Shown piece by piece: positions 3,734-61,150 of a stretch of 64,000 nucleotides of DNA. Numbering within the stretch: position 1 is the first letter of the stretch; each line of letters starts with the position of its first letter. Source of the DNA: Mycteria americana. Lineage: Eukaryota > Chordata > Aves > Ciconiiformes > Ciconiidae. Where the stretch lies: NCBI RefSeq assembly GCF_035582795.1, contig NC_134390.1, forward strand, positions 2,247,560-2,311,559, in the 5' to 3' direction. The notes beneath the pieces are model-generated. The model had not been told where the DNA came from. It made no database searches and was given only the letters and a program-made list of their open reading frames with translations. Both the position numbers and the translations under genes were made by a program.

Positions 3734-6449
3734 CTACATGACCTCGTAGCCGCTGCGGATGCCCTTCATCAGGCAGCAAGCGAAGATGATGCCCAGGATC
3801 TGGGAAGGGAGAGGGGAGAGGGGGTGATCCCCATCCTGCACAGCCCCACACGTGGAGGGGGGGCTCAGCCCCACACGGGGGGGCTCAGCCCCACGTCCTA
3901 CCTCGAAGAAGGCGATGCCCAGCGCGACGGCGGCCACGATGAGGATGTTCTTCTTCATCCAGGCTTCGATGCTCTGGAGGCAGCCCTGGGGGAGCAGCGG
4001 GGCTCAGGGGGCGGCCGGACCCCTGGGGCTGAACGGGGGGGGAGGGGGGGGCACGGGGGGGGGGGTCTCACCTTCTCGTAGACGGTGGCGGGGCTGGGGC
4101 GGACGTTGCAGGAGGTGGTGTTGACGCGGCAGCAGGACCGGGGCACCGTGTTGTTGAACCTGAACCGCTCGATGGTGGCCCAGTCCGTGTAGTTGTTGAC
4201 TCCGCAGCAAGCGAACTACCGGGGGGGGGGGGGGGGGGGAACCCCAGGGGGTCAGGGGGGCCGAGCCCCAGACGCCCGCCCCCCCCCCGACCAGGGCCAC
4301 CCCGTGACTCACATCCCTCTGGAGCTCGTCCACCGCCGCCGTCGCGGGCTCGTCCTCCCCGTACTTGTGCATGGCGTCCCACAGCCCGTCCTCCAGCACC
4401 GAGCGGACCTGGGGGGGCCGGGGGGGGTCAGAGGGGGACGGGGGGGGGGGTCCTGCAGCACCCAGGCGGGTCCGTGCCCCCGTGCCCCCTCCCCACGAGT
4501 CCCCCACCTTGTCCTTGAAGACGTATCCGGTGATGGCAGCGGCGATCTCCACCAGGAAGATGATGCTGAGCAGGACGGCGAACTGCGGGGGGACAGGGTG
4601 GGGGTCAGGGCGGGGGGGTTAAGGTGTGGGGGGGGGAGTGGGGGGGGGATCCAGGGTGCCCACCGTGGTGACCATGCAGTAACTCTCCTTCCAGGCGCCG
4701 CAGCAGCCGAAGAAGGAGATGAAGAAGATGATGATGCCCAGCACCAGGATGGCGACGGGGGTGCTGGAGGCGGAGGCGCTGCTGACGGCCAGCGCCTCAC
4801 TGAGGGCCACTTGGGCGTAGATGCCGATGGCGATGAGGGCCACGCCGCAGACCTGGGGGGGGGGCAGCGGGAATTGGGGTGCAGCTGCCACCCTGCGGGG
4901 CCAGGACCCCCCCCGAGCCAACGGGGTGGGAGGGGGGCACCCGCAGCTGAGCATTGTTCCCTTCCCGGGGGGCGGGGGGGGGGGGGGGGGGGGGGCAGCG
5001 CCGGGGGTTGTCCCCAAATGGGGGACCCCCCTCCCCGGGGGGGATGAGAAGGGGTGGGGGGGAACCTCTGGCCCCCCGGCCCAGCACAGCCCCGCCAGCG
5101 ATGTCCCCACGGGGGCACGGCGGAGGGAGGGGGCCCCACTCCTGCCCCACGGCGGGACACTCCCCAGCCCCGCTGCGGTGAGGGGGGGCCGGGCTGGCGG
5201 CCGCAGGAACGCCGGGAAGTCCGGCCTTCCGGCCGCAGCGAGAGGCCTCGGAGGGGGGGACCTGGCACCAGCCCCCCACCCCGGGGGGCCCCGGGCAGAC
5301 CGGGGGGTGCCGGGGCAGGGGGCCACGCCAGGCACATGCCGTCCCGGTGGGCACCGGCAACCCCGCTGGCGTGGGAGCCGGGAGGCCCACGGCCCTTCCC
5401 GGCACCGGGGCAGGAGTGGGTCCGTGCTGCCCGTGTCCGCCACCCCCCCACGGGTGGGACACCCCACCCCCCCACGGCCTCGGTTTCCCCGTGGCGGTGG
5501 GGACCCCCCCGGGCCGGCCTCCCCGGGTGCCGCCGGCCCTGTTTGCTCGCAGGGCGTGGGTAAACAGCGCGGCCCGGCCGCCCGCTGCACAAACACTCCG
5601 GCAGCGGGGGCCGGGGGGGGCTGGCGCCGGTGTCCCCATCATGTCCCCCCGCCGCTGGCGGCCAGCCCGAGCCCCCCCGGGCCGTCCAGGGGTGACTCAG
5701 GCCGGCAGGATCAGGGTGGGGACCGGGACGAGTCACTCCCTGCGTGGGGGGACAGGATGACGGCCAGGAAAGCGCCCGGCCCCCCTTCACCCCCCCCGCA
5801 CCCCGCTACGGCCGTTGGCCTTCTCACGCCTCTTTCCTCACCCCAACTTCCCCAAACCCGTGCCCTGCCCCGCGCGGGGACCCCGGCCGGGGCAGCCGGG
5901 AGCCGTGGGGCTCGGGGGGGACCTGGCCACCCGTGGGGTTCCCACCCTCACCTCGGGGCTCGGCTTCCCCCGGCCGGAGCGTGCCAGCCTCGCCCTGCCC
6001 GGCCTCGTTACCCCTGGAACCTACCGATGGCAGCGTGCGGCCGCAACACTGCCCGGTGCCCTGCTTCTCGCAGGGTGGGCGGCCTCACCCCCCTCCCCCC
6101 CCAGCACCCGCTGCAGCCCCCCCCAGGCAGCAGGGCCCCCCCCGGGGTCCCCATGACCCCCAACTCAGGGCCTGCAAGGGGGGGGAAAGGGGGTGTCAAA
6201 GGGGCCGTACACGGGGGGAAGCTGACGTCAGCGGGGGGGCAACACGGGGGGGCTGCTGCTTGCCGTGGGGCTGGGGCGGGCCCGTCCCCGGCAGGGCACG
6301 GCTGGGAAGGGCCCGTCTGCCCGGTTCTGCCGGCCCCGGGGCCCCCTCCCCGGTTTCCCCGGTCCCCCCCGTCCCCCACTCACCCAGAAGATGAAGTTGA
6401 AGATGAAAACCAGATACTTCACACATTTCATCCCGCCCTCGACCGCCAT
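3734..6449 (-). CDS. CD63: CD63 tetraspanin (LAMP-3)
   Basis: Seven coding exons on the minus strand, 6384-6449, 4664-4852, 4508-4582, 4313-4408, 4072-4215, 3902-3985 and 3734-3799, all in phase 0, join to 239 residues (human CD63 has 238). CD63 is a four-pass membrane protein of late endosomes, lysosomes, secretory granules and exosomes that partners integrins and TIMP1. The N-terminus MAVEGGMKCVKYL is nearly that of human CD63. Four hydrophobic segments are visible. The large loop has CCG at 145-147, a second CC pair in PRSCC, and glycosylation sequons NYT, NNT and NTT. The C-terminal GYEVM is the known lysosomal sorting signal. Intron 1 (4853-6383) is GC-rich and holds a 22-G run; other introns are about 70-170 bases. 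Confidence 0.96.
4974..4995 (+). repeat. 22-base G run in CD63 intron 1
   Basis: An uninterrupted run of 22 G on the plus strand (C on the transcribed CD63 RNA). It may form a quadruplex, and its exact length is uncertain because long homopolymers are often miscounted. Confidence 0.8.
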
Positions 6450-7077: not shown

Positions 7078-7440
7078 GCCCTGGCCACCCCACGGTCCCT
7101 GGCACCCCATGCCCCGCGCCCCGGGGTCCCGGGGTACCCCACACCCTGCATCCCAAAGTCCTGGCCGGCCCATGCCTGCACCCGGGGTCCCTGCCACCCC
7201 GTACCCTTGCACCTTGGGGTCCCACCCACCCTGTGCCCCGAGGTCCCTGCCACCCTGTGCCCTGCACCCCAGGGTCCCTGCCACCCTATAACCTGCACCC
7301 TGGGGTCCCGGCCACCCCGGTCCCTGCAACCCCGTGCCCTGCACCCCAGGGGCCTGGTCACGCTGTTCCCAGCCACCCTGTGCCCTGCACCCCAGGGTCC
7401 CTGCCACCTCATACCCTGCACCCCGGGGTCCCGGCCGCCG
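7078..7440. repeat. C-rich imperfect tandem repeat in the 3' UTR of the INPP1-like gene
   Basis: About 12 imperfect units of roughly 25-35 bases built around CCCTGCACCCCAGGGTCCC followed by TGCCACCC. Units differ in length and sequence. The array ends a few bases before the INPP1-like stop codon on the minus strand. Confidence 0.75.
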
Positions 7441-7445
7441 TGGGC

Positions 7446-8941
7446 TCAGAGCCCCGGCACGGTGGCCAGCGCGGCCAGCACGGCCTCCAGGTGCTGAGGG
7501 TGCGCGTAGGCCACGAGGCCACCCCGGTTTGCCCAGCGCTCGGCCCCCGCTGCCCCCTCCGCCGGGCAGTTGTAGACCAGCTCGGGGGGTGGCCCGGTGT
7601 CACCCGCCCGCCGTGCCCGCAGGGCCCCCGCCAGGGCCACCGTGCCCCCACCCAGGGCCCGCAGGATGGCGTGGGGGGCGCAGGCGTCCCAGGCGAAGGT
7701 GCTGCCCTCGGAGAGGACGTAGGCGTCCGCCAGCCCCAGGATGACGCAGAGCATCTTGTAGCCGGCACCGGCGGCGAAGCGCAGGCGGTCACCGCAGAGG
7801 GGACCCAGGGCTGCCCGCACCGCTTCCCCCTCCGCCCGGCTCAGCACCACGCAGGGCGCGGGGCGCAGCGGCGGGGGGCTCAGCGAGCACAGCCGCGTGT
7901 CCCCGTACGCGACGCCCCAGTGGTACCTCCCCTGCCACCTGTGGGGACGGGGACTCTGAGCGTGGACCCTGCCACCGGGTCCCCAGGCTCTCCCCGGCCT
8001 CTGGGGCCAGGATCCGGCCATGACCCCCCGGTGCTCCCCGCGGTGCCGGTACCTGCGGGTCAGGGGGTCCCGGCGGAAGAAGGGCTCGTTGATGACGCCC
8101 AGCACGGGGCAGCCCGTGTGCCGGTCGTAGGCCCCGATGAGCACCAGCGCCGAGCACAGCCCTGCCGGGGCGATGCCGTCGACGGGGGCCACGTCCTCGT
8201 GCCCAACGATGTACTCGTTGGTGGAGTCTGCGGGTGCAGCCGAATTCACCGGGGCTCAGCCGCGGTGTGCGTGTGGGGGGGGTCCCCGACCCGCCCTCTC
8301 CCAGCACCCCCTCACCGATGGGGTCTATCCAGATGGCCAGGTCCTGGGGGGGGATGCTGAGCGCCACGCCGGCCAGCTTCGCGTCCCCCAGCGCCACGTC
8401 CCGGTGCACGGCGGCTGCCAGCAGCTCGGCGGCCGCCCGCTCGGGCTCCAGCACGGAGAGCAGCAGGGCCGCGGTGTCTCCCGGCGTGGCACAGACCCGC
8501 ACCGCCACCGTCTCCCCTGCCAGCACCCCGGCCTCAGCGACGGCCCCGCGGCCCCCCGTGTTGGGGGGCCCCGGCTCCGCCGCTCCCCCCGGGACTCACC
8601 CTGCCCGTTCCTGAACTCGTTGGTCTCCTCGCCATGGATGTGGCCCTGCAGCTCGGGGAACTGGGGGGGGACACGGGGCGGCTCAGCCACGGTGCAGGGG
8701 TTTGCGGGGCCACCCTGGGGACCCCCCCGTCCCCTACCTCCTTCCCCAGGTCGTGCTTGATGACCTCCTGGATGAGGACGTCCGCCAGCGTCTTGAAGTC
8801 CTGCAGGAACCTCCTGTTCCTGTCGGCCCCCGTCTTCTCGGCCACCAGCAGCTGGAAGAGCGGCTGCTCCCGCCGGCACAGCCGGGCGATGTGTGCCGCC
8901 TTCTCCGAGGCACCCACCAGGGCCTGCAGCAGCCCCGCCAT
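7446..8941 (-). CDS. Inositol polyphosphate 1-phosphatase-like protein (INPP1 paralogue)
   Basis: Five coding exons on the minus strand, 8738-8941, 8600-8660, 8316-8516, 8053-8227 and 7446-7938, join to 377 residues (human INPP1 has 399). INPP1 is a Mg-dependent, Li-sensitive phosphatase that removes the 1-phosphate of Ins(1,4)P2 and Ins(1,3,4)P3. All metal-site motifs are present at the human numbering: GEETNE with Glu79 and Glu80, IDPIDST with Asp153, Asp156 and Thr158, and WDACAPHAILRALGGG with Asp298. The loss of about 20 residues lies in the linker before Asp298, where human INPP1 has a low-complexity stretch. Other matches are FKTLADVLIQEVIK and RWANRGGLVAY. The exon 3 acceptor has a poor pyrimidine tract, but it alone keeps the frame and the alignment. 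It lies head to head with GDF11. In humans INPP1 is beside MSTN, the GDF11 paralogue, so this is probably the other 2R copy and not INPP1 itself. The intact frame and motifs suggest a working enzyme. Confidence 0.92.
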
Positions 8942-10740
8942 GGCCGGGCCTGGGGGACGCAGCGCTCAGGGGGGGCCCGGCCACCCCCCAGCTCCCAGCG
9001 TGGCCCCGCAGCCCTGGCCCCGAGCGCCCGCCCGTAATTGCCGGGTGCGGGCAGCACCCAGGGCCGCGTGCGGCCCGGGCCCCAGGGTGGGGACCCGGCT
9101 CAAATTATCCTGCCCGGTGCCAGAGGCCGCAGCCCGGAGGTGGGGACGTGGCCGCGGGGACGTGGCCGCGGGGACGTGGCCGTGGGGCCGTGCCTGGCCA
9201 AGGACACGGCCCCACTGTGGCGTTCCCGCGTGGGGGGGACCGTCCCGCGTGGAGGAGGAAGCAGCCAGGGCTGGGGGGGGGGGGGACGTCCCCGCTGCAC
9301 CCCCAGAGAGGAGTGGGGTGTCGGGGCCGCGCACCCCCCCAGCAGCGCGTCACCGGCAGCGATGCCCCGCGGCGGCGGCGGCCCATGCCCCTCCCCGGGG
9401 CCGCGCCACGTGGGGGCACCCCCGGGACCCCCCCCCGCGGGGGATGCCCTCCCCGGGGTGCCCCCCCCACCCCCCCACCCGCGGAGGGGCCCCCACCCCC
9501 TGCCACGCCCCCGGGGGGGATCCCGGGGACCCGCGGGAGCCGCCCGCTCCCCCCCGTTGCCGTTACCGGGGCCGGGGCCGCTGACAGCTCCTGCGGGGCG
9601 GCCCGTGGGGCGGGGCCGGCCGGGCCGCGTCACGCCGCCGCATTAACCCCCTCGGCCCCACGGCCCGGCGTGCGGGGGACCCCGGCGTGCGGGGGAGACC
9701 CCGTCGTGGTGGTTGGAGGGGGGGGGGGACGGACCCGGTGTCGGGGCTCCGAGCGCCGCTTCCGCGTCGCGCCCCCGCTGCCCCGGGGCCGGTGACACCG
9801 GGGTGCGGCGATGCCCATCGCGGCGGGGAAACCCCGGCACCGGGACCCGACGGGGAGGTAACGGAGGGGAGGGCCGGCACCGGGACCCCCCGCTCCTCTC
9901 CGACCCCCCGGGACTACCGGTGCGGCGGTGCCACCCCGCGCCGCGCGGTGGCGCTCTCGTCCCGGCGCTGCTCCTCGCTCCGGTTTTACCGGCTCCGGTG
10001 TGGACGCGCCCGCTCCGGAGCGACGCCGCAGCGCCCCCTAGCGGGATGCGCTTGCGCCACGCTCCCACCGCGCACCGGGGGTAACGGGACCGTTCCCCTA
10101 CCCCCCCCCCCCCCAGACACCCCCCCCCTGCCCCGCCACACAGGCAGCCCCCCCCCTCCACACACCCCGCCTCGGGTCTCCCCACCGCGCCGGGTCGGGA
10201 CCCCCGCCACCTCCCGCCACACCGGGAGCGGGGCCCGGAACGTGCAGCCCCGGTGCCACGGGCGCGGTCGCATCTCCCTCTTGCCCTCTCCATGGTTCTG
10301 ATGGGGCCGGCACCGGGGGAGCGGGGGGGACCGGCACGGAGCGGAGTTTGGGGGGGGGGGGGGGGGGTCCGGGGGCTGTTGAGGACACGGGGCGGGAGGG
10401 GACGGGGAGCGGGAGGGGAGCGGGGGTACGGTTGAGGACGCGGGGCGGGGGGGGGGGGGAAGGGGGAGGGGGGTGACACGGAGGGGGACGGAGGCACCGG
10501 GACGCGCATCCCCGGTCCCCGGGGGCGGTGCGGCGGGACCCAACTCCCGGCAAGTGCGGCGGGGCCGGGCGTTCGCCCGGCCCCGCCGCACTTGCCGGGA
10601 GTTGGGTCCCGCCGCACCGCCCCCCGCCACAAGCGGAGGCGGGGGGGGGGGTCGGAGCGAACCGGGTGGCGGCGGGGCCGTTCCCGGTGCTCGGGGGGCC
10701 GGCGGCGGCTGGTGACAAGCCCCTGCCAGAACCTCTTTTG
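8942..10740. other. Head-to-head spacer between the INPP1-like gene and GDF11
   Basis: About 1.8 kb of CpG-rich DNA separates the two divergent genes and contains both promoters. Short direct repeats GGGGACGTGGCCGC occur near 9140-9180, and C or G homopolymers near 10,100 and 10,345. I see no coding exon. The inverted repeat at 10,521-10,624 is described separately. Confidence 0.6.
10521..10624. repeat. Perfect 51-bp inverted repeat (hairpin) upstream of GDF11
   Basis: Left arm 10,521-10,571 and right arm 10,574-10,624 are exact reverse complements over all 51 bases, separated only by TT. I checked the pairing base by base: the next outward pair is C against C and does not match. The arms start GGGGGCGGTGCGGCGGGACC and are about 80% GC. 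The hairpin ends about 160 bases before the TATA box. It may be real or a sequencing or assembly fold-back. Confidence 0.95.
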
Positions 10741-10751
10741 TGCGCCCGCAG

Positions 10752-10794
10752 CCAATCAAGGCCGCTGACGACACACTTCTCTTGGGGTATAAAA
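10752..10794 (+). promoter_or_regulatory. GDF11: GDF11 core promoter (CCAAT and TATA boxes)
   Basis: GCCAATCA has its CCAAT at 10,752-10,756, and TATAAAA lies at 10,788-10,794. They stand 229 and 187 bases before the GDF11 ATG. The spacing is right for transcription starting near 10,820, in a C-rich stretch, giving a 5' UTR of roughly 160 bases. Confidence 0.8.
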
Positions 10795-10980
10795 CCCCGG
10801 GGCCGCCGCTACCGCCGCTTTTTTCTTTCCCCCCCCCCCCCCCTTCACCCCCCCCGGTCCCTCACCGCCCCCCGCTTCCCCGCCCCCGCCACCGTTACCG
10901 CCTTCCCCCCGTTCCGCGCCCCTTGCGCGTTGCGGTGGAAGCGGGGGGGGGGGCGGCCCGGCGGGGAAAGGTTTCCCGGT

Positions 10981-13900
10981 ATGGCCCCGGTATTGCTGCG
11001 GTTGCTGGCGTTGGTGATGGTGGCGGGGGGGTGGGTTGAAGCGCAGCCCCCCGCCTCCGAGCCCGCTTGCCCCGTGTGTCTCTGGCGGCGGCACAGCAAG
11101 GAGCTGCGGCTGGAGAGCATCAAGTCGCAGATCCTGAGCAAGCTGCGGCTGAAGGAAGCGCCCAACATCACCCGGGAGGTGGTGAAGCAGCTGCTGCCCA
11201 AGGCCCCGCCGCTCCAGCAGCTCCTCGACCTCCACGACTTCCAGGGGGACTCGCTGCAGCACGACGAGTACCTGGAGGAGGACGAGTACCACGCCACCAC
11301 CGAGACCGTCATCAGCATGGCCCAGGAAAGTCAGTGCCGCCTTTGTTCCGCCCCGCCGCCGCTGCAAACTTCGCCGGCGGACTCCCCCCCCCCACCCCCA
11401 CCCCGGCTCCCGGCCCCCCCCGACCCCCCCGGCTCCCCTCCCGGCTCCCCCCCCCCCGCCCGCCTCGGCCCGCCCGGCGGCAGGCACCGGCCCCCCGGGG
11501 CTCCCCCGCCGACCCCCCGGGGTGCCCCCTCCTCCCCCGCGGCTCCCCGTTCCCCCCCACCCCCCCACCCCCCCCCCCGGGGATGCCGCGTTCCCCCGGC
11601 ACCCCCCGGGCTCCCCACGGGGCTCCCCGGGCACCGGCCCGCAGCCCCCGCTCGCCCCCCCCCCCCCCCCGAACCCCCCCCCCGACCCGGGGCGGCTCCG
11701 TGCGAGTCCCGGGGGGAGGCACCGCGCCGCACCGGGGACCCGGGAACCCGGCGACGGGACAGCCCGGCCGGCAGCCGGGACGGGGCAGCGGGAGCTGGGA
11801 GATGGGACCGGGACCGGGGCCGGCCAGCGGGAGCTGGGACCTGGCAGCAGGTAACTGGGACCCGGGACCGGGGACCGGGACCCGGCACTGGCACCGGAGG
11901 GTCGTGGGACCGGGCGCTGGCAGGAGGTACCAGGACCCGGCACTGGCACCAGCATCAGCACCGGCGCTGGTGCTGGGTACCGGGACCTGGCACCGGCACT
12001 GGGACCCGGCGCTGGGTACTGGAACCCGGCACTGGGCACCGGCACTCGGCACCGGCACCGGCACTGGGACCGGACTGGGGGCACGGGGCAGACGGCACGG
12101 TGACCTCCCTGTCCCCAGGGCCCCACCGGGCAGCGGGTGCCAGCGCTCGCCTCCTGCTGCGGCACGTGGCAGGGTGACAGCAGGGTGACAGCAGGGTGAC
12201 GGCAGGGTGACGGCAGGGTGACGGCAGGGTGACAGCAGGGTGACAGCAGGGCACGCTGGGGACAGGCAGGCGCCTGCCCTGGGCCTGCCCGCGGCCGGCA
12301 CAGCGAGGGGCTGCGAGGGGCTCCAGCCCGGGGTCCCCGGCAGGGAGGGGAGGGGGTGCGGCGGCTTTGCTGCGCTGTGACACGGCTCCGTCCGTCCGTC
12401 CGTCCGTCCGCGGGCGAGGAGGGGGCGAGCGACGGGGCTCCGGGGCGGCTGCACCCCGCACCTCTCCGTGCCTCAGTTTCCCCCGGTGCCAGCGTGGTTC
12501 CGCGTGTCCCGGCCCCGGCTCCACCTGCTCCAGCGGCGGGACGGGGCGGTGGGACCCCCGAGGTGCGGGGGCTGCGGGAGCCCCGGGAGCGGGGCCGGGG
12601 GGGCCGGGTGCGAAGGGCGAGCGGAAGGGAGGGAAGTGTGAGGCGCTGCCCCCCCCCCCGCGGCCCCCCGACGAATTTCCTTCCCAGGCATTAATAGACT
12701 CGGGCGGCTTTGAAATTTTATTACCCATAAAATTGACAACACGCTGGGGTTTTCCTCCCCGCGCCGCGTTAACGCTCGCTGCCCCCGGCCCCCCCTCCTG
12801 CCCCTTAACAGCTCGGGGGCCCCCAAAATAAATACCAGAGGGTGACCCCTCCTCCCGGCTGGCCGGGCCCCGCACGGCCCCGCTCCGGGGGTCCCGCAGC
12901 CCCGGCCCCGCAGCCGGATGCGCCGCGGGGTCCGGCCTGCTCCGGCGGCGGCCGCTCCGTTATTATTATGATTTTTCCTCCCTCCTCGCCCCCCCCGTGG
13001 CAATTGTGTGGGGTTTTATGGTTCCTGAACAGAAGGAGGGAAAGGGCTTTATAGGCGGCAGAGCCATAAAGCTCTCGGGTTCCCCCCGGCTGCCCCCCCC
13101 CCGTTAATCCCAAGCCACCACCCCCAGCACCCCCCGCCCCCCCGTTTTTTTTTTTAACTGCAGAAGGAACCCGGGAAGGTTAATTGGGTCCTAAACCCAT
13201 TTAGGGGCTACCCGTGACCCCCGCGACCTGCGGGGTGGAGGGAGCTTAATGAGGGGCGATGGGGGGCCGGCCGGGCACGGGCCGGGGCGAGGGGCTGGCG
13301 GGGCCGGGGGGCCGCCCGTGCCGCTCGCTGCCCTGCCAGGGCCGGAGCCGCTCAAGGTCAGCGGGACACGGGGACACGGGGACACGGGGACACGCCGGAG
13401 GCACCGCTGGCACGTGGACCCTCGGGGGTCCCCAGGGTGCCTGGACCTGGGGGGTCTCCGGTCCCCCGCGGCAGGCGAGGGGTTAACGGGGCAGAGGTGG
13501 GAGCCCCAAATCCGGGCCCGGTGGGAACAAAGGGGGGGGGGGGCTCGGGGCCGCCCCCCTCCCGGCACATACTCAGCTGTGACCGATGTCCCGGTAACCT
13601 TTATCCCCCGTTGCCAGAGCGACGGGACGAGCATCCTGGCACCGCCGCAGCCCCGTGCCAGGAGCAGCCGGCGTGGCACAGCCCCCGCGCTCCCACCCCC
13701 CGGCACCCCAGACCCCCCTCTCGCCCCTGGGCCCGCAGACGCCCGCTGTCCCCCGGGATGCCAGGCCCGGTCCTGGTCCCGGGCCCGAGGAGGGTCGGCG
13801 GTGCCGCCGGTGTTGCCGGTGCCGCGGCGAGGGGCTTCGGTGGCAGCTTTAAGGGACCTGCACCGGCTCCAGCGCTGCTTTGGCATCTCTCACCTGGAGA

Positions 13901-16900
13901 CCCTACCAAAACAACCCCACCGGCACGGTCCTCGCCGCGGAGCCAGCCACGGCGAGCCCGGAGCAAACCGGCACCGCGTCCCCTAAGGCCGCCGGTGACC
14001 TCTGTGCGGTGTGGGCACGGTGCCACCGGGACCACAGGGGACCCAGAGCCCCCCGAGGTGGCCGCCGGCCCAGGCTGGGACGACGTCCCACCGGTGACGG
14101 GAGGCAAAGCCCCCACCAAGGGGCTGGGGGGCACAACCTGCCCCGGGCTGGGAGCCGGGGGGGGCCAGCGCGGCTTCGAGGGGACGGGCGGCGCGGGGGG
14201 GGGGAGCGGTCCCCGGGAGGGTCCCGGGGGAGCGCGGGTTTAATCGGGGGCTTGTGCGCAGCAAATTGCTGGGAGGGGTTTGGGCGGCCGGCGCCCGCGG
14301 CCCCCCAGCCCCTGTCACTTTGGTTTATGTGCGGCGCGGCGGGGGGCTGGATGGCATTCCCGGGGCTGCGGCCGGTGTCGTGACCCCCATGTGTTCGGGG
14401 AGGCCTCGCACGCAGCAAATGGCCCCGCGCTGCAGCTGGGTGCTATTAAACCTGACCGGTGCGTGGCAGGGGGAGGGGGCCGCACGGGGGGGGGGGAAAT
14501 TCCCAGCTCAATTTGACACAGATGTTTGCCGAGCAGGGAGGGCCGGCGTGGGGCCGGCTCCAGCCGGGGTGCTGCCGCGGGGCTGGGGGAGGGCGGCCGG
14601 GGACCCCCGGATCCGACGGATGCTCGGGCCGGGATGCTCGGGGTTGTCACCCCCCCGGGGCGGGTGTCCCCGTCCCCACGGTGGCCGCTCGCCTTCGCCA
14701 CCTCTGAGGGCATCACCCTGGGCGGGACCCGCCGGGGTCCCGGGTGAAGCATCCCCGGCTGCTTTGCCGCCGGCCGGCAGAGGCGTGGGGCCGCCCCGAA
14801 AACAAGCCCGGGGGGGTGGGAGACGGGAGGGTGGGAGATGGATGCCCTCTGAGATGCAGACCCGGCGGGATCCCGCTGGCCAGGCCCCGCTGGCGGGGAG
14901 CCCGGCGGTACCCGTACCCCAGCTCGGTGCCACGGACCCTCCTCGGGGCTTGGCCGCAGCCCCGGGGCTTTGCCGCAGCCCCGGGGCTGTGGGACCAAGC
15001 GCGTTCCCGGCTCCGACACAGGGACGCGTTGGGAAGCGGCTGCCCCGGAGCAGGTGCCGTGGGGCCGGAGCCCCCCGCCCCGCTCCGCCCGGCCCCGCTC
15101 GGCGGGGGGCTCGGTCCCCGCAGCCCCCGCGGGGGATCGTGAATCCCCGGCGACGCGGGGTCAGGGGGCAGCCGGGGACCTTATTGCGAATGGAGGGGCA
15201 ATGACCCCCGGGGCGGCCTCTGACCCGACCTTCAACTCCTAACGACCGAGGAGGAGCTCGCCCTGACCCTGCGTGCGATGCGATGGAGGCGGCGGCGGCG
15301 GGGGGGGGGGGGGGGGGTCCCGGGGCCGCCCCTGACGCCTCCTTCCTCCCCGCAGCGGACCCCGTGGTGCAGATCGAGGGCAACCCCCATTGCTGCTTCT
15401 TCAACTTCAGCCCCAAGATCATGTTCACCAAGGTGGTGAAGGCGCAGCTGTGGGTGTACCTGCGGCCGGTGCAGCACACCTCCACCGTCTACCTGCAGAT
15501 CCTCCGCCTGAAGCCGGTGACGGAGGAAGGCAGCCGCCACATCCGCATCCGCTCCCTGAAGATCGACCTCAATTCCCGCATCGGGCACTGGCAGAGCATC
15601 GACTTCAAGCACGTGCTGCAGAACTGGTTCAAGCAGCCGCAGAACAACTGGGGCATCGAGATCAACGCCTTCGACCCCAACGGCAACGACTTGGCGGTCA
15701 CCTCGCTGGGACCCGGGGCCGAAGGGCTGGTAGGTGGCTGTCGCGGGGTGGGCGCGCGGCTCAGGGTCCCCGCGGTCCCGGGGCTCGGTGCCGCGCGGAG
15801 CTCGTGGGGCGTCGCGGTGGCCCCGGTGCTCAGCTGGGCACGGGGCTCCCAGCCATCCCCGGGGAACCGGAGGGCGAGGGGGGGCGACGGGGACAGGCAG
15901 GGGTGGTGGTGCAGCTCTGTGGGGCTGGTGACGGCTTGTGGGGGTGGTCACAGCTCTGTGGGGACAGCGACAACTCCATGGGGACAACGACAGCTCTGTG
16001 GGGCTGATCACAGCTCTGCCAAGCTGGCGACGGCTCCGTGGAGCCGGTCACAGCTTTGTGGGGACGATGACAGCTCCACGGGGACGATGACAGCTCCATG
16101 GGGACGATGACAGCTCCATGGGACCAGCCACAGCTCCACAAGACCGGTCATATCTCTGCAGAGCTGGTGATGGCTCCATGGGGCTGGTCACGGCTTTGTG
16201 GGGACAGTGACAGCTCCATGGGACTGGTCACAGCCCCACGGGGACGGTGACACCCCCACGGGGTTGGTGACACCTCCACGGGGTTGGTGACACCTCCACG
16301 GGGTTGGTGACGCCTCCGTGGGGCTGGTGACGGCCCCGTGGGGACAATTACAGCTCTGCGGGGCCAGTTACGGCTCCGCAGGGACGGTCGCAGCTCCATG
16401 GGGATGACAACACCCCCGTGGGGCCGGCGACACCCCCGTGGGGCCGGCGGCAGCTCCGCGGGGCCGTGCGGGACCCAAGGAGCCGGGACGGCGGGGCCAC
16501 GGGGCGGCGGGGCGGCGGGTCAGCGATGGGGCTCACGCCCCCCCCCCCCCTCTCCCCCCAGCACCCCTTCATGGAGCTGCGGGTGCTGGAGAACAACAAG
16601 CGCTCGCGGCGGAACCTGGGGCTGGACTGCGACGAGCACTCGACCGAGTCGCGCTGCTGCCGCTACCCCCTCACCGTCGACTTCGAGGCCTTCGGCTGGG
16701 ACTGGATTATCGCCCCCAAGAGATACAAAGCCAACTACTGCTCGGGGCAGTGCGAGTACATGTTCATGCAGAAGTACCCCCACACCCACCTGGTGCAGCA
16801 GGCCAACCCCCGGGGCTCGGCGGGGCCCTGCTGCACCCCCACCAAGATGTCCCCCATCAACATGCTTTACTTCAACGACAAACAGCAGATCATCTACGGC

Positions 16901-16942
16901 AAGATCCCGGGCATGGTGGTTGACAGATGCGGATGCTCCTAG
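10981..16942 (+). CDS. GDF11: Growth/differentiation factor 11 precursor
   Basis: Three coding exons, 10981-11329, 15356-15729 and 16562-16942, join to 367 residues (human has 407). GDF11 is a secreted TGF-beta-family ligand acting through activin type II receptors and ALK4/5, and it sets trunk-to-tail and neural patterning. A signal peptide covers about residues 1-22. The prodomain has the latency helix [19 protein letters not shown] and the FQGD site (Gly89-Asp90) corresponding to the tolloid cleavage point. RSRR at 255-258 is the furin site and leaves a 109-residue mature peptide with nine cysteines, ending VVDRCGCS. From memory the mature part differs from human by only Ser-to-Thr at position 11. 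The missing 40 residues are the human poly-alanine N-terminus and a glycine run. MSTN is excluded by mature-domain residues and neighbours. The first donor is GTCAGT, slightly unusual. Confidence 0.97.
11746..12080. repeat. GC-rich imperfect tandem repeat in GDF11 intron 1
   Basis: Units like CGGGACCGGGACCGG, GGCACTGGCACCGG and TGGGACCCGG repeat with variable length through this stretch. It lies in the first GDF11 intron, downstream of a C-rich segment at 11,380-11,700. Confidence 0.7.
12171..12251. repeat. 11-bp tandem repeat in GDF11 intron 1
   Basis: About seven copies of GGGTGACAGCA or GGGTGACGGCA follow one another with an exact 11-base period. Confidence 0.9.
12387..12410. repeat. (TCCG)6 microsatellite
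   Basis: Six perfect TCCG copies in GDF11 intron 1. A similar TCCG/TCCA run occurs near 62,625-62,650. Confidence 0.9.
12670..13215. promoter_or_regulatory. AT-enriched island in GDF11 intron 1, candidate regulatory element
   Basis: Within a very GC-rich intron this stretch contains AT-rich blocks with repeated homeobox-like sites: CCATAAAA at 12,725, TTTTATGG at 13,014, TTTATA at 13,048, CCATAAAG at 13,063, and GCATTAATAG near 12,689. TTTATG/CATAAA are the type of site bound by CDX and posterior HOX proteins. That it is an enhancer is inference from composition and motifs only. Confidence 0.35.
14240..14535. other. Second low-GC patch in GDF11 intron 1
   Basis: GGTTTAATCGGGGGC, CAGCAAATTGCTGGG, TTTGGTTTATGTG, GCTATTAAACCTG and CTCAATTTGACACAG are concentrated here, unlike the surrounding GC-rich intron. 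It could be a conserved non-coding element; nothing else supports this. Confidence 0.25.
15941..16460 (+). repeat. 20-bp minisatellite, 26 units in exact register, GDF11 intron 2
   Basis: Units such as GGGACGATGACAGCTCCATG repeat with an exact 20-base step from 15,941 to 16,460 without any insertion or deletion, although units have diverged at many positions. The array occupies most of intron 2 (15,730-16,561), with weaker similarity just before it. Confidence 0.92.
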
Positions 16943-22174: not shown

Positions 22175-22288
22175 GGCACCGGATCCCGGGGTCGGCACCG
22201 GATCCCGGGGTTGGCACCGGATCCCGGGGTCGGCACCGGATCCCGGGGTTGGCACCGGATCCCGGGGTTGGCACCAGATCCCGGGGTC
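22175..22288. repeat. 19-bp tandem repeat, six copies
   Basis: Six consecutive copies of GGCACCGGATCCCGGGGTC, with C/T alternation at the last base and one internal change in the last copy. Confidence 0.92.
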
Positions 22289-25200
22289 GGCCACGCAGCA
22301 TCCCCACAGGAGCGGAGATGGAGGAGGCCGGCTGGGGGCTGGGAGGGGCGCGAGCAGCTCTGCTGTTCCTCGGGGCCTTCGTCCCCCGTGTCGATCCCGG
22401 GACGGGCCCTCGGCCTCTCCATCCGCTCGCCCAGCTCCGCACGCCGGGTCCCTGCGTCACGGCAGCCCCCCGCGCCCGACCCCGCCGTCCCCCTCCCGCC
22501 TCCTCCCTCGGGAGCTCCCGGCCTGATCCGGCGACCGTGGCTTTGACCAGCTCGGGAAACATTTCCTAATGCTTCTCATTTTTCCCACGCCCCCGACGCT
22601 GGCCGCGCACCACGGACGAGCGGATGAGAGGGGACGAAATCCGCCCCGACGCCCCGTGCCCAGCTCGGAGCCGCTTGCGGCCAAGGCCGTTCCCGGGTTT
22701 ATCTCCCAGCTGGGGCCAAACCGCAGCCCCCTCCCCTCCCAAACCCCCCCGAGCACGCTTGGCCTTGCGCTTCAGCAGCCAGCGCTGAGCCAACGCCTTG
22801 AGAACCGGCCCAGGAGAACGCGGCCACCCCAAAATCTTCCCCGGCCCACCGGAGAAGGACGTCCCCGTCCCAGCGGCCGACGCGGGGGTGGCCCGCGCCC
22901 AGGGACGGGGCCGCGTTCGCCATCCTGAGCTCTTCTTCCACCCCCCCGCGCACCGAGAGCCGCGGCGAGGCTGAGCAAACCCGGGCGGGTTGACCCCGAG
23001 CAGGGGACAGAGGACGCGGGACAGGGATGGAGACAGCCGGGACAGCGCCGGGGACAGCGCCGGGGACGCCCCGCGTGGGAGCCCCGGCTCCGGGCGACGG
23101 CCAGAGCCGCGCTCCCCCCCGGCTGGGAGCCCCCCGCCCTCCCGCCGGCCCCCGCTTCCTCCCGGCGCAGCTCCCCGTTGTAAAGCTGAGATTTACAAGT
23201 GGCCCCGAGTGCCGGAGGAGCCGAGAGCAGGGGCAGCCTTTATGGAGCCTCATTAGGGGCTGCAGGTATGCCGAGAATGCCGCAGCTAATTACCGCCGTG
23301 GCGGCGGGAGGGGACAGGGTGGGCAGCGGAGGGTCACTGCCCACGGGGCCGGGGGAGCAGGGGGACCTTCTGGCCCAAGCGAGGACCGGACACGAGGACG
23401 CGGCTCCGGCACGGACTCTCGCCCCGCTGGGGTCAGCTGGGTCCCAGGCCCTGCCGGCAGCGGCGGCGGCTCGGGGGACGTTGGCCGTTTCCCCGCTCCC
23501 GCTCCGGCCGCCCTCCAGCCGAGGTCCTCCAGGGGAGGCTGGGAGGCTGCCGCTCCCCCCGGCCCCGGCAGCACCCCGGCCCGGCCCTGCACCCCTCGCT
23601 GCTGCTGCGGGCCCCGTCCGCTCCAGCTGCAGACCCCAGCCCCATCTCGGCCCAGAGCTCGCTATGGGGGGGCCGTGGGCAGCTCCAGGCTGGGCCGAGG
23701 TCTCGGCCGCGGTCGAGGACAAGGTGCCGAGTCCCTCCAGCGCCAGAGCTGCTCCGGGGAGAGCTGCCTGCTCTGCCCTCTCCGGACTCAGCTTCCCCAC
23801 GGATAAAGCTCCCGGGGGTCTTCAGGACCCGCAGGACGGCACCGAAGCAGCACCCGCGGGGCAGCACGAAGCACGACGTGACGGCAACGACGCCCCGGTT
23901 CCCCCGGCCCCGGGGGACGAAACCCAGCTCTGACGGGGAGACGCGTCCACGGCTCCGCAGCATCCCCATCGCCGCCAAGCCCCCGCTCTGCCCACCGTCC
24001 CCTGGGGGCCACGGCCTCGGGGTCCGCCTGGGGGGGGGCCAGGCTGTGCCACCCACCCAGAAGGGCCGCCGGAGGAACGGAGGTCCCGGGGGCGTTGGTT
24101 TGTTTGCTTCGGAGGACGATGTCAAGAGTTTAACGAGCGCTTGCTTTTGTTCTGGTCACGTCTCCCCCGAGGCTGCGGGGGCTGCACCCCACATCGCTGC
24201 TCCCCCCCCCCGGCCATCGGGTGACCTAATTCAGAGACCCAGAGGCAGGGCTGGGGGGGGGGGGGGGACAAATTAGGACAGGGACATCCGGACGACCACA
24301 CACAGCTGCACCATGACACACCATGGCTCCCCGAACCTTCCCCTCTGCCGCCTAACAAGACCGTCCGCACGCAACATTCACAGTAATTAAACCATCAACG
24401 GGGAGCTGGCGGAGCTCCACCGGCCTCGCCGCGGCCCGGGGGGAGACGCCAGAACCGGGGTGATTATCCGGGAGAGCTGGGCACGGTCCAGCCCCCCCAC
24501 CGCCGGCGACGGGGCGGGATGCCGCGCTGGCACAGAGCTCGCACGCAGGCAGCGGCAGCACGGGGCCGTGCCCGGCTCTAGGGCCAAGGCTCCCGGGGAC
24601 CGGGTGGCTCAGCCCCCCGGCAGCGCTGCCGCTCGACCTCCAGCCTGCGGCAGGGATGGGATTTTGACGCAATCCCGAAGATCCCCAAACCATCCCAGGC
24701 TCCAGGCAGCAGGTTGCTCGCAAGGAGGACTTGAGGCATCCCAATTCCCCGTCCCCCAGCGAGCACGTCCCTTACAGAGCCACCTCCTCCCCGGCTGCAG
24801 CGGTGCCCGGGCTAGAAGGAAGGATTCAAGGGGCCGGAGGCAGCGGCCAGCCATCGCTCCTGCTTCCCGGCCAGCCTCCCGCCACCGGAGAAAGGCCCTG
24901 CGGGACGGGAGCAAGGAGCCGAGGAAGGTCAACGCTCAGGCTCCTTGGGGAGAAGATGCACGAGACCGGTGAGTCTGCAGAGAGAGAAGGAGAAAGTCTT
25001 GACAGCAGCGGCCCAGGGCCACCTCCTGCGATGGAAATCCCTCCTTCAGCCCCCATGGAGCCCCGCGGTGGGACCCAGCACATCCCAGATCCCGGCTCCC
25101 ATCTGCGGGAACGGCGGCAGCGAGCCGGGAGGGCCACCGGCCACGCTCATCGGCTCCGGCACAAGCGCAGGCGGAGGGCGGTGGTGAGGGCTCGGTGCGG

Positions 25201-59608: not shown

Positions 59609-61150
59609 ATGAACGTCGGCGTGGCGCACAGCGAGGTGAACCCCAACACGCGGGTGATGAACAGCCGGGGGATCTGGCTGGCGTATGTGATCTCCGTGGG
59701 AGTCCTCCACGTCGTTCTCCTCAGCATCCCGTTCTTCAGCGTTCCTGTGGTCTGGACGCTCACCAACGTCATACACAACCTGGTTAGTCAAAGCTCGGCC
59801 CGCTTTTCTCCCAGGGCGGGAGAGCACGCGGGCTGGCGTTCGCTGGGTACGGTTCCGTGTCCCCGGGCTACGAGTGCCCCGGTTCCAGCTGGGATAGAGT
59901 TAATTTTCTTTATAGTGGCTGGTATGGGGCTATGTTTTGGATTTGTGCTGAAAACAGTGTTGATGACACAGAGATGTTTTAGTTGTTGCTGCACTGGTCA
60001 AGGACTTTTCAGCTTCCCCTGCTCTGCCAGGAGCAGAAGCTGGGAGGGGGCACAGCCGGGACAGCTGACCCCAACTGCCCAAAGGGCTATTCCATACCAT
60101 ACGGCGTCATGCTCAGTATATAAAGCTGGGGAAGAAGAAGGAAGGGGGGGACATTCGGAGTGATGGCGTTTGTCTTCCCAAGCCACCATTACGCATCATG
60201 GAGCCCTGCTTTCCTGGAGATGGCTGAACCCTTGCCTGCCCACAGGAAGGAGTGAAGGAATTCCTTGGTTTGCTTTCCTTGCGTGCACGGCTTTTGCTTT
60301 CCCTATTAAACTGTCTTCATCTCAACCCACGAGTTTTCTCACTTTTACTCTTCCGATTCTCTCCCCCATCCCACCGGGGGGGAGTGAGCGAGCGGCTTTG
60401 GGGGGCTGAGCTGCCGGCTGGGGCTAAACCACGACAACGAGAAAGCCCCCGGTTGCTGCGGGGCACGGAGGGAAAGGCTGGGGGGTTGGCGGTGCGGGAG
60501 GAGCTGTAGCTGATGAAAGATCTTTAGCTCGGGAAACAGCACAAAGGCACGAAGCCCGTTTCTGTCCCGGGCTTGCTTGACGTCTCCTCTCCCCTTGAAA
60601 CCTGCAGGCCATGTACCTGCTGCTGCACACGGTGAAGGGGACCCCCTTTGAGACCCCGGACCAGGGCAAGGATCGCCTCCTCACGCACTGGGAGCAGATA
60701 GACTACGGGACGCAGTGCACCTCGTCGCGCAAGTTCCTCAGCATCTCCCCGGTAGTGCTGTGAGTGCCGCTGAGCGAGGCAGGGCGGCACGGGGGGCTCG
60801 GGAGGGCATCCAGGGCACGCGGTGGGACCGCTGGGCTTCTGTCGGCACAGCCGCCCCGGCACGGACGGGTCCTGGGGCTGGAGAGGGTTCCTCAGCTGCC
60901 AGGTGCTGTTTTCTACAGGAAGCACCAGCGAGGCACCCGAAATCCCCCCGATGCGGGCGGAGGGGAGGGTGGGAGCGGCACAGGGCTCACCCAGGGTCTC
61001 CCTCTCTCCCCCAGGTACCTCCTCACCAGCTTTTACACCAAATACGACCCCGCGCACTTCGTCATCAACACGGCCTCCCTGCTCAGCGTCCTTCTGCCCA
61101 AGCTGCCCCAGTTCCACGGCGTGAGAGTCTTTGGCATCAACAAGTACTGA
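59609..61150 (+). CDS. ORMDL2: ORMDL sphingolipid biosynthesis regulator 2
   Basis: Three coding exons, 59609-59782, 60608-60759 and 61015-61150, join to 153 residues, the exact length of vertebrate ORMDL proteins. ORMDLs are small ER membrane proteins that bind serine palmitoyltransferase and restrain ceramide synthesis when ceramide is high. The start [20 protein letters not shown] is the family signature, including the Asn near position 13 involved in ceramide sensing. Hydrophobic segments lie at about 22-41 and 42-65, and two more in the last third (ISPVVLYLLTSFY and [13 protein letters not shown]). The C-terminus [14 protein letters not shown] is invariant in the family. ORMDL1, 2 and 3 are hard to tell apart; the neighbours SARNP and DNAJC14 identify ORMDL2. 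The first coding intron carries a solo LTR. Confidence 0.95.
59875..60436 (+). mobile_element. Solo LTR of an avian endogenous retrovirus (ERVL-like) in an ORMDL2 intron
   Basis: A 562-base element begins TGCCCCGGTTCCAGCTGGGA and ends AAACCACGACA. It is flanked by a perfect 5-base duplication ACGAG (59,870-59,874 and 60,437-60,441). TATATAAA at 60,117 and ATTAAA at 60,305 mark the U3-R and R-U5 areas. I know this sequence type as a common solo LTR in bird genomes; the 5-base target duplication fits class III (ERVL). It looks like a complete single LTR with no internal region, left by recombination between two LTRs. It stands in the same direction as ORMDL2. It is a fossil of moderate age. Confidence 0.9.

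Follow-up and report, generated by a model that had tools for sequence, protein, structure and literature searches.

Which gene for INPP1, an enzyme of inositol phosphate signalling on which lithium acts directly, do birds carry beside GDF11? The question arises from a stretch of 64,000 nucleotides of the Mycteria americana genome (the window), in which a complete INPP1-type gene with five coding exons on the minus strand encodes a protein of 377 amino acids. All four introns have GT-AG boundaries. As the preliminary description had stated, the gene lies head to head with GDF11, whose three exons span positions 10981-16942 of the plus strand. Among solved structures the window protein matches bovine INPP1 (1INP) best, with 377 bits and an E-value of 8.7e-112 over residues 1-371, and a full-length match at this level is far beyond chance. 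The protein further contains the Inositol_P domain PF00459 (97.2 bits against a cut-off of 27) and is 99% identical to the Ciconia boyciana protein P0001, named inositol polyphosphate 1-phosphatase. Full-length match and domain place it in the INPP1 family. The window also holds an ORMDL-family gene, by position ORMDL2, and tetraspanin-like exons, which we take to be CD63 from their position and the human gene order. The neighbours CD63, RDH5, SARNP and DNAJC14 are presumably so named, from the Pfam class where one was found and from human sequences and gene order.

Table 1. Positions of coding features in the window (first letter = 1); C26 is the sequence that contains the window.
Feature	Position	Strand	Remarks
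Tetraspanin-like exons	3734-4990, approximate	-	PF00335, E 1.3e-4, under the Pfam curated cut-off
INPP1 type-B coding exon 5	7938-7446	-	stop codon included; GAGYK and WD motifs
INPP1 type-B coding exon 4	8227-8053	-	starts at DST of DPIDST
INPP1 type-B coding exon 3	8516-8316	-	3' end is DPI of DPIDST
INPP1 type-B coding exon 2	8660-8600	-	holds metal-site residues E79/E80
INPP1 type-B coding exon 1	8941-8738	-	ATG at 8941; residues 1-68; donor GTAGGG
GDF11 coding exon 1, TGF-beta propeptide	10981-11329	+	ATG at 10981; 3' limit is the donor read by eye
GDF11 coding exon 2, TGF-beta propeptide	15356-15729	+	limits are splice sites read by eye
GDF11 coding exon 3, mature TGF-beta domain and stop	16562-16942	+	Pfam TGF_beta, E 1e-30
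ORMDL-family gene	59639-61126 (C26:2307198-2308685)	+	PF04061, E 1.6e-11; limits of the Pfam matches

A tree of 42 INPP1 proteins resolves two clades, A and B, each with support of 100/100, and the split is recovered under LG+G4 with support of 100. Clade A comprises mammals, frogs and salamanders together with sharks and rays. Clade B comprises birds, reptiles, caecilians, lungfish, ray-finned fishes and, again, sharks and rays, and includes the window gene, which thus does not group with mammalian INPP1. The separation from the mammalian gene that the preliminary description had anticipated is borne out; its notion of a copy kept by birds proved too narrow, as turtles, alligator, squamates and tuatara carry type B just as the window gene does, and caecilians, lungfish and ray-finned fishes have the same type. 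In both clades cartilaginous fishes stand beside the bony vertebrates, whose groups are supported with 95/90 (A) and 98/94 (B). The type-A protein P0257 is placed at the base of the bony vertebrates. Two features have to be borne in mind when reading the tree, the atypical amino-acid composition of the avian rows and the length of the lungfish row. Consistent with the two clades, all 120 matches listed for the window query score as B and all 120 listed for the bovine query score as A. No mammal is found among the 108 named of the 120 matches listed (of 615) for the window query. Type A seems to have been retained in mammals, frogs and salamanders, and type B appears to have been lost in mammals, judging from the matches listed and the human map. 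Three type-A proteins considered as reptile sequences (P0207, P0208 and P0215) were rejected as such, since a quick tree puts all of them inside the placental mammals.

We then ask how many INPP1 genes are live in this genome. A genome search with a salamander type-A query gives five matches, of which four fall on the window gene and one on a C3 exon at an E-value of 0.08. Neither this query nor a search for the Inositol_P family yields a second INPP1 gene, and the window gene is the only live INPP1 found in this genome. The preliminary description had proposed a second lithium-sensitive inositol phosphatase in birds, and the coexistence of the MSTN-linked and the GDF11-linked blocks in one genome would give two working INPP1 genes, one in each, a place to reside. 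This is very improbable given the outcome of both searches and the state of the MSTN-linked site, which holds only broken remnants with frameshifts.

These remnants lie at C9:9.150-9.151 Mb between HIBCH and MFSD6 and represent decayed type-A exons 1 and 2. In cattle INPP1 lies by HIBCH and MSTN (PMC8908906). The cattle site is located between HIBCH and MFSD6, i.e. at the same place as the C9 remnant, while the window gene is found on C26 by GDF11 and C9 holds only a remnant. With 14 queries taken from 142 type-A proteins, the exon 2 remnant is matched by all 14 (best 34.3 bits) and the exon 1 remnant by 11 (best 29.3 bits), compared to a best score of 27.7 bits and a median of 25.0 in 40 dinucleotide shuffles of the 32-kb gap. 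The exon 2 remnant retains 19 of 23 residues with one frameshift, the exon 1 remnant 25 of 48 with two frameshifts. Their order, strand and location are those expected of the type-A exons; they lie about 1.3 kb apart, and each is followed by a GT (9150085 and 9151420). The spacing and the GT dinucleotides led us to reject a processed copy. Orthologous location, preserved exon-intron layout and a broken reading frame together characterize the C9 locus as a unitary pseudogene.

Could the C9 matches be due to chance, type A having been cleanly deleted or having never existed in birds? In a 200-kb scan of C9 the single matches are short and weak (best E 0.001 for exon 2 and 0.12 for exon 1, with chance matches elsewhere at E 0.2-0.9), a per-exon profile gives the exon 1 remnant only 2.1 bits, and exons 3 and 5 of type A were not found at the C9 site. 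An exon-4-like match is doubtful, with 26.2 bits (C9:9160098-9160325) and 23.9 bits (9160203-9160319), both within the range of the shuffles. Against chance stand the recovery of exon 2 by every query, the scores of exons 1 and 2 above the best shuffle, and the joint agreement of two exons in order, strand, place and following GT; we regard coincidence as highly unlikely and rejected it. The exon 2 remnant is strangely well preserved for an old pseudogene, which is not what one would expect had type A simply been lost in the ancestor of sauropsids.

A single live copy would also be expected if, within the sauropsid line, one INPP1 had left the MSTN block and settled in the GDF11 block, the bird and mammalian genes being orthologous. 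The preliminary description had named the lack of any other INPP1 in the genome as a sign of such a translocation; no other gene was found indeed, yet both the tree and the remnant left at the old site contradict a translocation. In AU tests three groupings are rejected: a single amniote clade (p 2e-107), a clade uniting A with the birds (p 2e-5) and a single clade of cartilaginous fishes (p 1e-6). Moreover, sharks and rays carry both types: Narcine bancroftii has P0260 (A) and P0264 (B) on contigs that differ in length, and Pristiophorus japonicus has P0266 (A) and P0259 (B). With a type-A remnant at the old site and a type-B gene in the window, a translocation is hardly credible. We thus conclude, with a probability of about 0.9, that the only live INPP1 in this genome is the GDF11-linked type-B member of an ancient pair and not the orthologue of the mammalian, MSTN-linked type-A gene, and that the bird type-A gene has decayed.

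How old is the pair? Both clades hold cartilaginous fishes, and INPP1 A and B are jawed-vertebrate paralogues whose duplication precedes the divergence of cartilaginous from bony vertebrates. The genomic surroundings provide a further indication. On C9 we find ORMDL at 8.94 Mb, MSTN at 9.04, HIBCH at 9.09-9.14, the INPP1 remnant at 9.15 and MFSD6 at 9.17-9.18, and on C26 INPP1, GDF11 and ORMDL. ORMDL and MSTN/GDF11 accompany both INPP1 sites, so that the pair resides in paralogous blocks with other duplicates and the repetition of three families in two blocks, expected from the preliminary description, is observed within a single genome. The block paralogy, including the linkage of type B to GDF11, was observed in this genome only. 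Very probably the A/B pair is a 2R duplicate, together with ORMDL1/ORMDL2 and MSTN/GDF11, as the block structure suggests. No amphioxus or tunicate row is present among the matches listed, and the tree comprises jawed vertebrates without lamprey, hagfish, amphioxus or tunicate rows, so that the case for 2R is built on the shared blocks rather than on a date. As to the earlier proposal of a retained 2R duplicate, a duplication before the cartilaginous/bony divergence stands on the tree, while 2R itself derives from the block structure. A segmental duplication that predates the jawed-vertebrate radiation would be compatible with a date left unbounded by jawless-vertebrate or invertebrate rows; it is nevertheless unlikely, as three shared families (ORMDL, MSTN/GDF11 and INPP1) are what a duplicated block predicts.

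According to these data the pair arose before the cartilaginous/bony split, most likely by the early vertebrate whole-genome duplications, and both copies persist in at least two cartilaginous species. In this bird, type B has been kept and type A has decayed, leaving the exon remnants between HIBCH and MFSD6; mammals apparently show the reverse, with type A seemingly kept in frogs and salamanders as well. Somewhat more tentatively, we favour a long-delayed reciprocal loss under one gene name: the twins probably coexisted through the tetrapod, amniote and amphibian ancestors before being lost independently, with A kept in mammals, frogs and salamanders, B in sauropsids and caecilians, and a late death of the bird type-A gene, whose exon 2 is still readable. 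Such a coexistence would span about 150 million years or more. It would make testable what allowed the two copies to persist for such a time and what then led lineages to settle on different ones.

Database entries from birds and reptiles that go by the name of INPP1 or INPP phosphatase, P0001 among them, represent the type-B gene seen in the window and carry an orthologue-like name, although the tree makes them paralogues of mammalian INPP1. If our reading is true, the bird and reptile 'INPP1' has been apart from the human gene for the entire jawed-vertebrate history, and one-to-one comparisons of INPP1 between birds and mammals (expression, regulation, lithium response) concern different genes. 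'Cryptic' vertebrate genes such as Bmp16 (PMC6395752) likewise are duplicates overlooked because well-studied species lack them. In contrast to Bmp16, the place of the missing INPP1 copy is taken by a twin that bears an identical name, which hides the swap, and a remnant of the lost copy is still visible. Gene-loss surveys limited to duplicates with human orthologues, as is the bird survey of PMC12954441, cannot see such a swap; INPP1, GDF11, CD63, RDH5 and SARNP do not occur in the text searched. The main text of PMC4290089 contains no INPP1, GDF11, CD63 or MSTN. Our literature search found nothing on INPP1 as an ohnolog or on INPP1 synteny in chicken, and for INPP1 together with GDF11 and MSTN it returned one cattle paper. 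INPP1 was absent from the papers listed in two broader searches (15 of 569 and 8 of 646), as was the full enzyme name from 15 listed of 23,801.

Does the type-B protein retain the chemistry of its twin? Compared with bovine INPP1 (1INP, 7KIR) it shares the fold, the full-length match and every residue examined at the metal, substrate and lithium sites, while the bovine protein is a clade A paralogue and the window gene belongs to clade B. The metal-site residues D54, E79, E80, D153, I155, D156 and D317 and the substrate contacts T158, E269, G290 and K294 (bovine numbering; residue roles from PMC7948987) all match in the window protein, and its lithium-site residues are kept, in agreement with the earlier statement that the gene retains all catalytic residues. 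Metal and substrate residues are identical in all 10 type-A and all 17 type-B rows of the alignment, and their columns are invariant across the 52-row alignment. A structure prediction for the Ciconia protein (99% identical to that of the window) has a pLDDT of 90, and INPP1 entries take the first six places among its PDB matches. Given this conservation at the catalytic, substrate and lithium sites, it is likely that a non-orthologous copy performs ordinary INPP1 chemistry. From residue conservation we infer that the window protein would remove the 1-phosphate of Ins(1,4)P2 and Ins(1,3,4)P3 with Mg2+ and be inhibited by Li+ like bovine INPP1, and that one INPP1 copy may be able to stand in for the other. 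The window protein keeps S157, a position at which 3 of the 17 type-B rows have A or G. Around position 240, type A carries an additional stretch of about 20 residues that is missing from the type-B rows.

The INPP1-type gene of the window consists of five coding exons with GT-AG introns throughout and encodes a product of 377 amino acids, which shares 99% identity with its counterpart in the stork Ciconia boyciana. GDF11 is encoded on the opposite strand, its start codon 2,040 bases from that of INPP1. The coordinates given in the preliminary description, and its account of an INPP1-type gene head to head with GDF11, are right.

Database searches separate two kinds of INPP1, type A, the MSTN-linked kind of mammals, and type B, the GDF11-linked kind of the window. 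Among the 120 listed of 615 matches to the window protein are birds, turtles, alligator, squamates, tuatara, caecilians, lungfish, sturgeon and teleosts; the 108 named rows among them contain no mammal, frog or salamander, a hint that type B is missing there. Bovine INPP1 retrieved mammals, then frogs and a salamander (120 listed of 868 matches), and the lack of any bird or reptile in the 87 named rows among these gives the corresponding hint for type A. A mixed five-row profile (120 listed of 786 matches) gained 27 further proteins, including cartilaginous fishes of both types. Scored against A and B profiles, which were built in part from rows that were also scored, the listed matches of the window query were B in 120 of 120 cases and those of the bovine query A in 120 of 120, while the 27 further proteins divided into 22 A and 5 B, with a smallest margin of at least 81 bits. 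The nearest relatives of 36 type-A rows from the bovine and mixed queries were a placental mammal (31), frogs (3), a salamander (1) and sharks (1, entry P0257). P0257 is of type A and takes a basal place among the bony-vertebrate rows; a source such as sturgeon, gar, lungfish or coelacanth would make it a case of a bony fish with type A. Entries P0207, P0208 and P0215 belong to placental mammals and are type-A proteins that have diverged strongly, with about 68-73% identity to the closest named rows.

The main tree comprises 42 proteins picked for breadth out of 268, holds no outgroup and was rooted on the A/B branch, a placement that needs one duplication. Clades A and B are each supported at 100/100, and in each of them the sharks and rays lie next to the whole set of bony-vertebrate rows (95/90 in A, 98/94 in B), the branching order in B being ray-fins, lungfish, caecilians and sauropsids. 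The A/B split also appears in a 33-row tree and, at support 100, in a quick LG+G4 tree. In a separate quick tree, fast evolution of songbird type B is visible in the end branch of 0.49 of P0053 (Taeniopygia). A tree constrained to a single amniote clade is worse by 176 log units (p 2e-107), one that joins A with birds by 73 (p 2e-5) and one that unites the cartilaginous fishes by 54 (p 1e-6). Because sharks and rays occur in both clades, and Narcine bancroftii and Pristiophorus japonicus have one A and one B protein each, the duplication predates the divergence of cartilaginous from bony vertebrates.

Searching the bird's own genome for the Inositol_P family gave 11 exon matches, on contigs C2, C3 and C26, the last of which carries the 64,000-base window at positions 2247560-2311559. 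Loci on C2 and C3 look like other exons of the family (DPIDGT, DPVDGT, WDLAA and similar), presumably IMPA and BPNT, with a best similarity to INPP1 queries of 43% over 42 residues. A salamander type-A query recovered four exons of the window gene plus one C3 exon at E 0.08. These searches thus found one live INPP1, so that of the two expectations raised earlier, a clade apart from mammalian INPP1 and a genome with both genes, the first holds at 100/100 and the second does not.

The MSTN block lies on contig C9; besides its ORMDL gene, the genome has one on C22 and one in the window. Four of the HIBCH and MFSD6 stretches are confirmed by Pfam ECH_2 and MFS_1_like. In cattle the order, according to the tables of PMC8908906, is MFSD6, INPP1, HIBCH, MSTN, PMS1.

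Location of the INPP1 genes, remnants and neighbours
Feature	Position	Strand	Remarks
INPP1 type-B coding exons	window 8941-8738, 8660-8600, 8516-8316, 8227-8053, 7938-7446	-	five
GDF11	window 10981 (start) to 16942 (end)	opposite to INPP1	
ORMDL gene	C9:8943675-8947996		92 kb from MSTN
MSTN	C9:9039973-9040350		87% identical to window GDF11 exon 3
HIBCH exons	C9:9089557-9136038	-	
Type-A remnant exon 1	C9 ~9149871-9150084		EILREL, CRQQ, SQLLIE etc., frameshifts and stops; then GT at 9150085
Type-A remnant exon 2	C9:9151355-9151419		SFPGLE, frameshift, NIAGEESNEFINELG; then GT at 9151420
MFSD6	C9:9168092-9181645	+	

Between HIBCH and MFSD6 two broken type-A exons are found in the expected strand and order. 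A first scan of 200 kb gave a best E of 0.001 for exon 2 and 0.12 for exon 1, with unrelated chance matches elsewhere at E 0.2-0.9. Within the 32-kb gap, exon 2 was matched by 14 of 14 type-A queries (best 34.3 bits) and exon 1 by 11 of 14 (best 29.3 bits), the best of 40 dinucleotide shuffles reaching 27.7 bits. Per-exon profiles gave 20.5 bits (E 9e-8) for exon 2, a weak 2.1 bits for exon 1, a doubtful match for exon 4 and none in this gap for exons 3 and 5; the exon-2 stretch scores higher with the type-A (6.2 bits) than with the type-B profile (2.0 bits). If exon 2 opens at the same codon as exon 2 of the window gene, it is preceded by CG instead of AG. The broken exons at the expected site thus indicate that this bird's ancestors once had the MSTN-linked INPP1, which decayed where it stood. 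Despite the broken gene, exon 2 (19/23 identical to Ambystoma type A, one shift) is far better preserved than exon 1 (25/48 identical to Sarcophilus type A, two shifts), which may reflect late loss, chance in about 61 bases or another use of the stretch.

Both copies reached the tetrapod ancestor, since A is live in mammals, frogs and salamanders and B in sauropsids and caecilians. This bird shows that both also entered the sauropsid lineage, and mammals and this bird appear to have ended with opposite copies. Loss of type B in mammals is hinted at by the best 120 of 615 matches and by the human gene map, on which type B is not known to occur. That birds and their kin kept an ancient duplicate in place of the mammals' copy, with a remnant of the lost copy still visible, is well supported; the case is one of reciprocal loss of old duplicates, a known phenomenon, and the swap is hidden behind a single gene name. 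Databases already call the bird gene INPP1, and what seems new is which INPP1 copy it is. In the literature searched, which leaves most subscription journals outside, no paper brings INPP1 and ohnolog together, which is not proof of novelty, and INPP1, GDF11 and MSTN occur together only in a cattle selection paper.

The window protein matches Pfam Inositol_P at 97 bits, and among solved structures bovine INPP1 entries match it best (377 bits, E 8.7e-112). A structure model of the Ciconia protein (P0001), built with 52 rows, has a mean pLDDT of 90; its first six structure matches are INPP1 (E 2e-38 to 7e-37), followed by BPNT1-type (4e-15). The window protein is identical at E79, D153, I155, D156 and D317, which we take to be further family residues. 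As in bovine INPP1, it keeps the lithium-site and Ins(1,4)P2-contact residues given in PMC7948987 (D54, E80, S157, T158, E269, G290, K294). Given these identities, it should act like the bovine enzyme, by metal-assisted 1-phosphate hydrolysis with lithium at the D54/E80 site. S157 is replaced by A or G in 3 of the 17 type-B rows aligned.

Several database entries labelled 'lgn', a label that we read as assembled sequencing reads, come from contigs of 1.3-2.3 kb that span the complete open frame; P0029 has 407 amino acids on at most 1,336 bases and is nearest among named rows to the duck Cairina (90%). Between its start and stop codons the window gene with introns spans 1,496 bases, so these contigs look like spliced transcripts.

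Tandem repeats occur at several places in the window. A 31-base minisatellite lies immediately 3' of the INPP1 stop codon (7086-7436), GDF11 intron 2 contains arrays of 20/40/60/140-base repeats (15970-16403), minisatellite arrays adjoin short-chain-dehydrogenase exons (607-1616; TRF units of 49-76 bases and multiples, GGGGACGACGATGACGACGACATGGGGTCCC...), and a 19-base repeat forms an array of 6.2 copies with 94% matches at 22175-22291.
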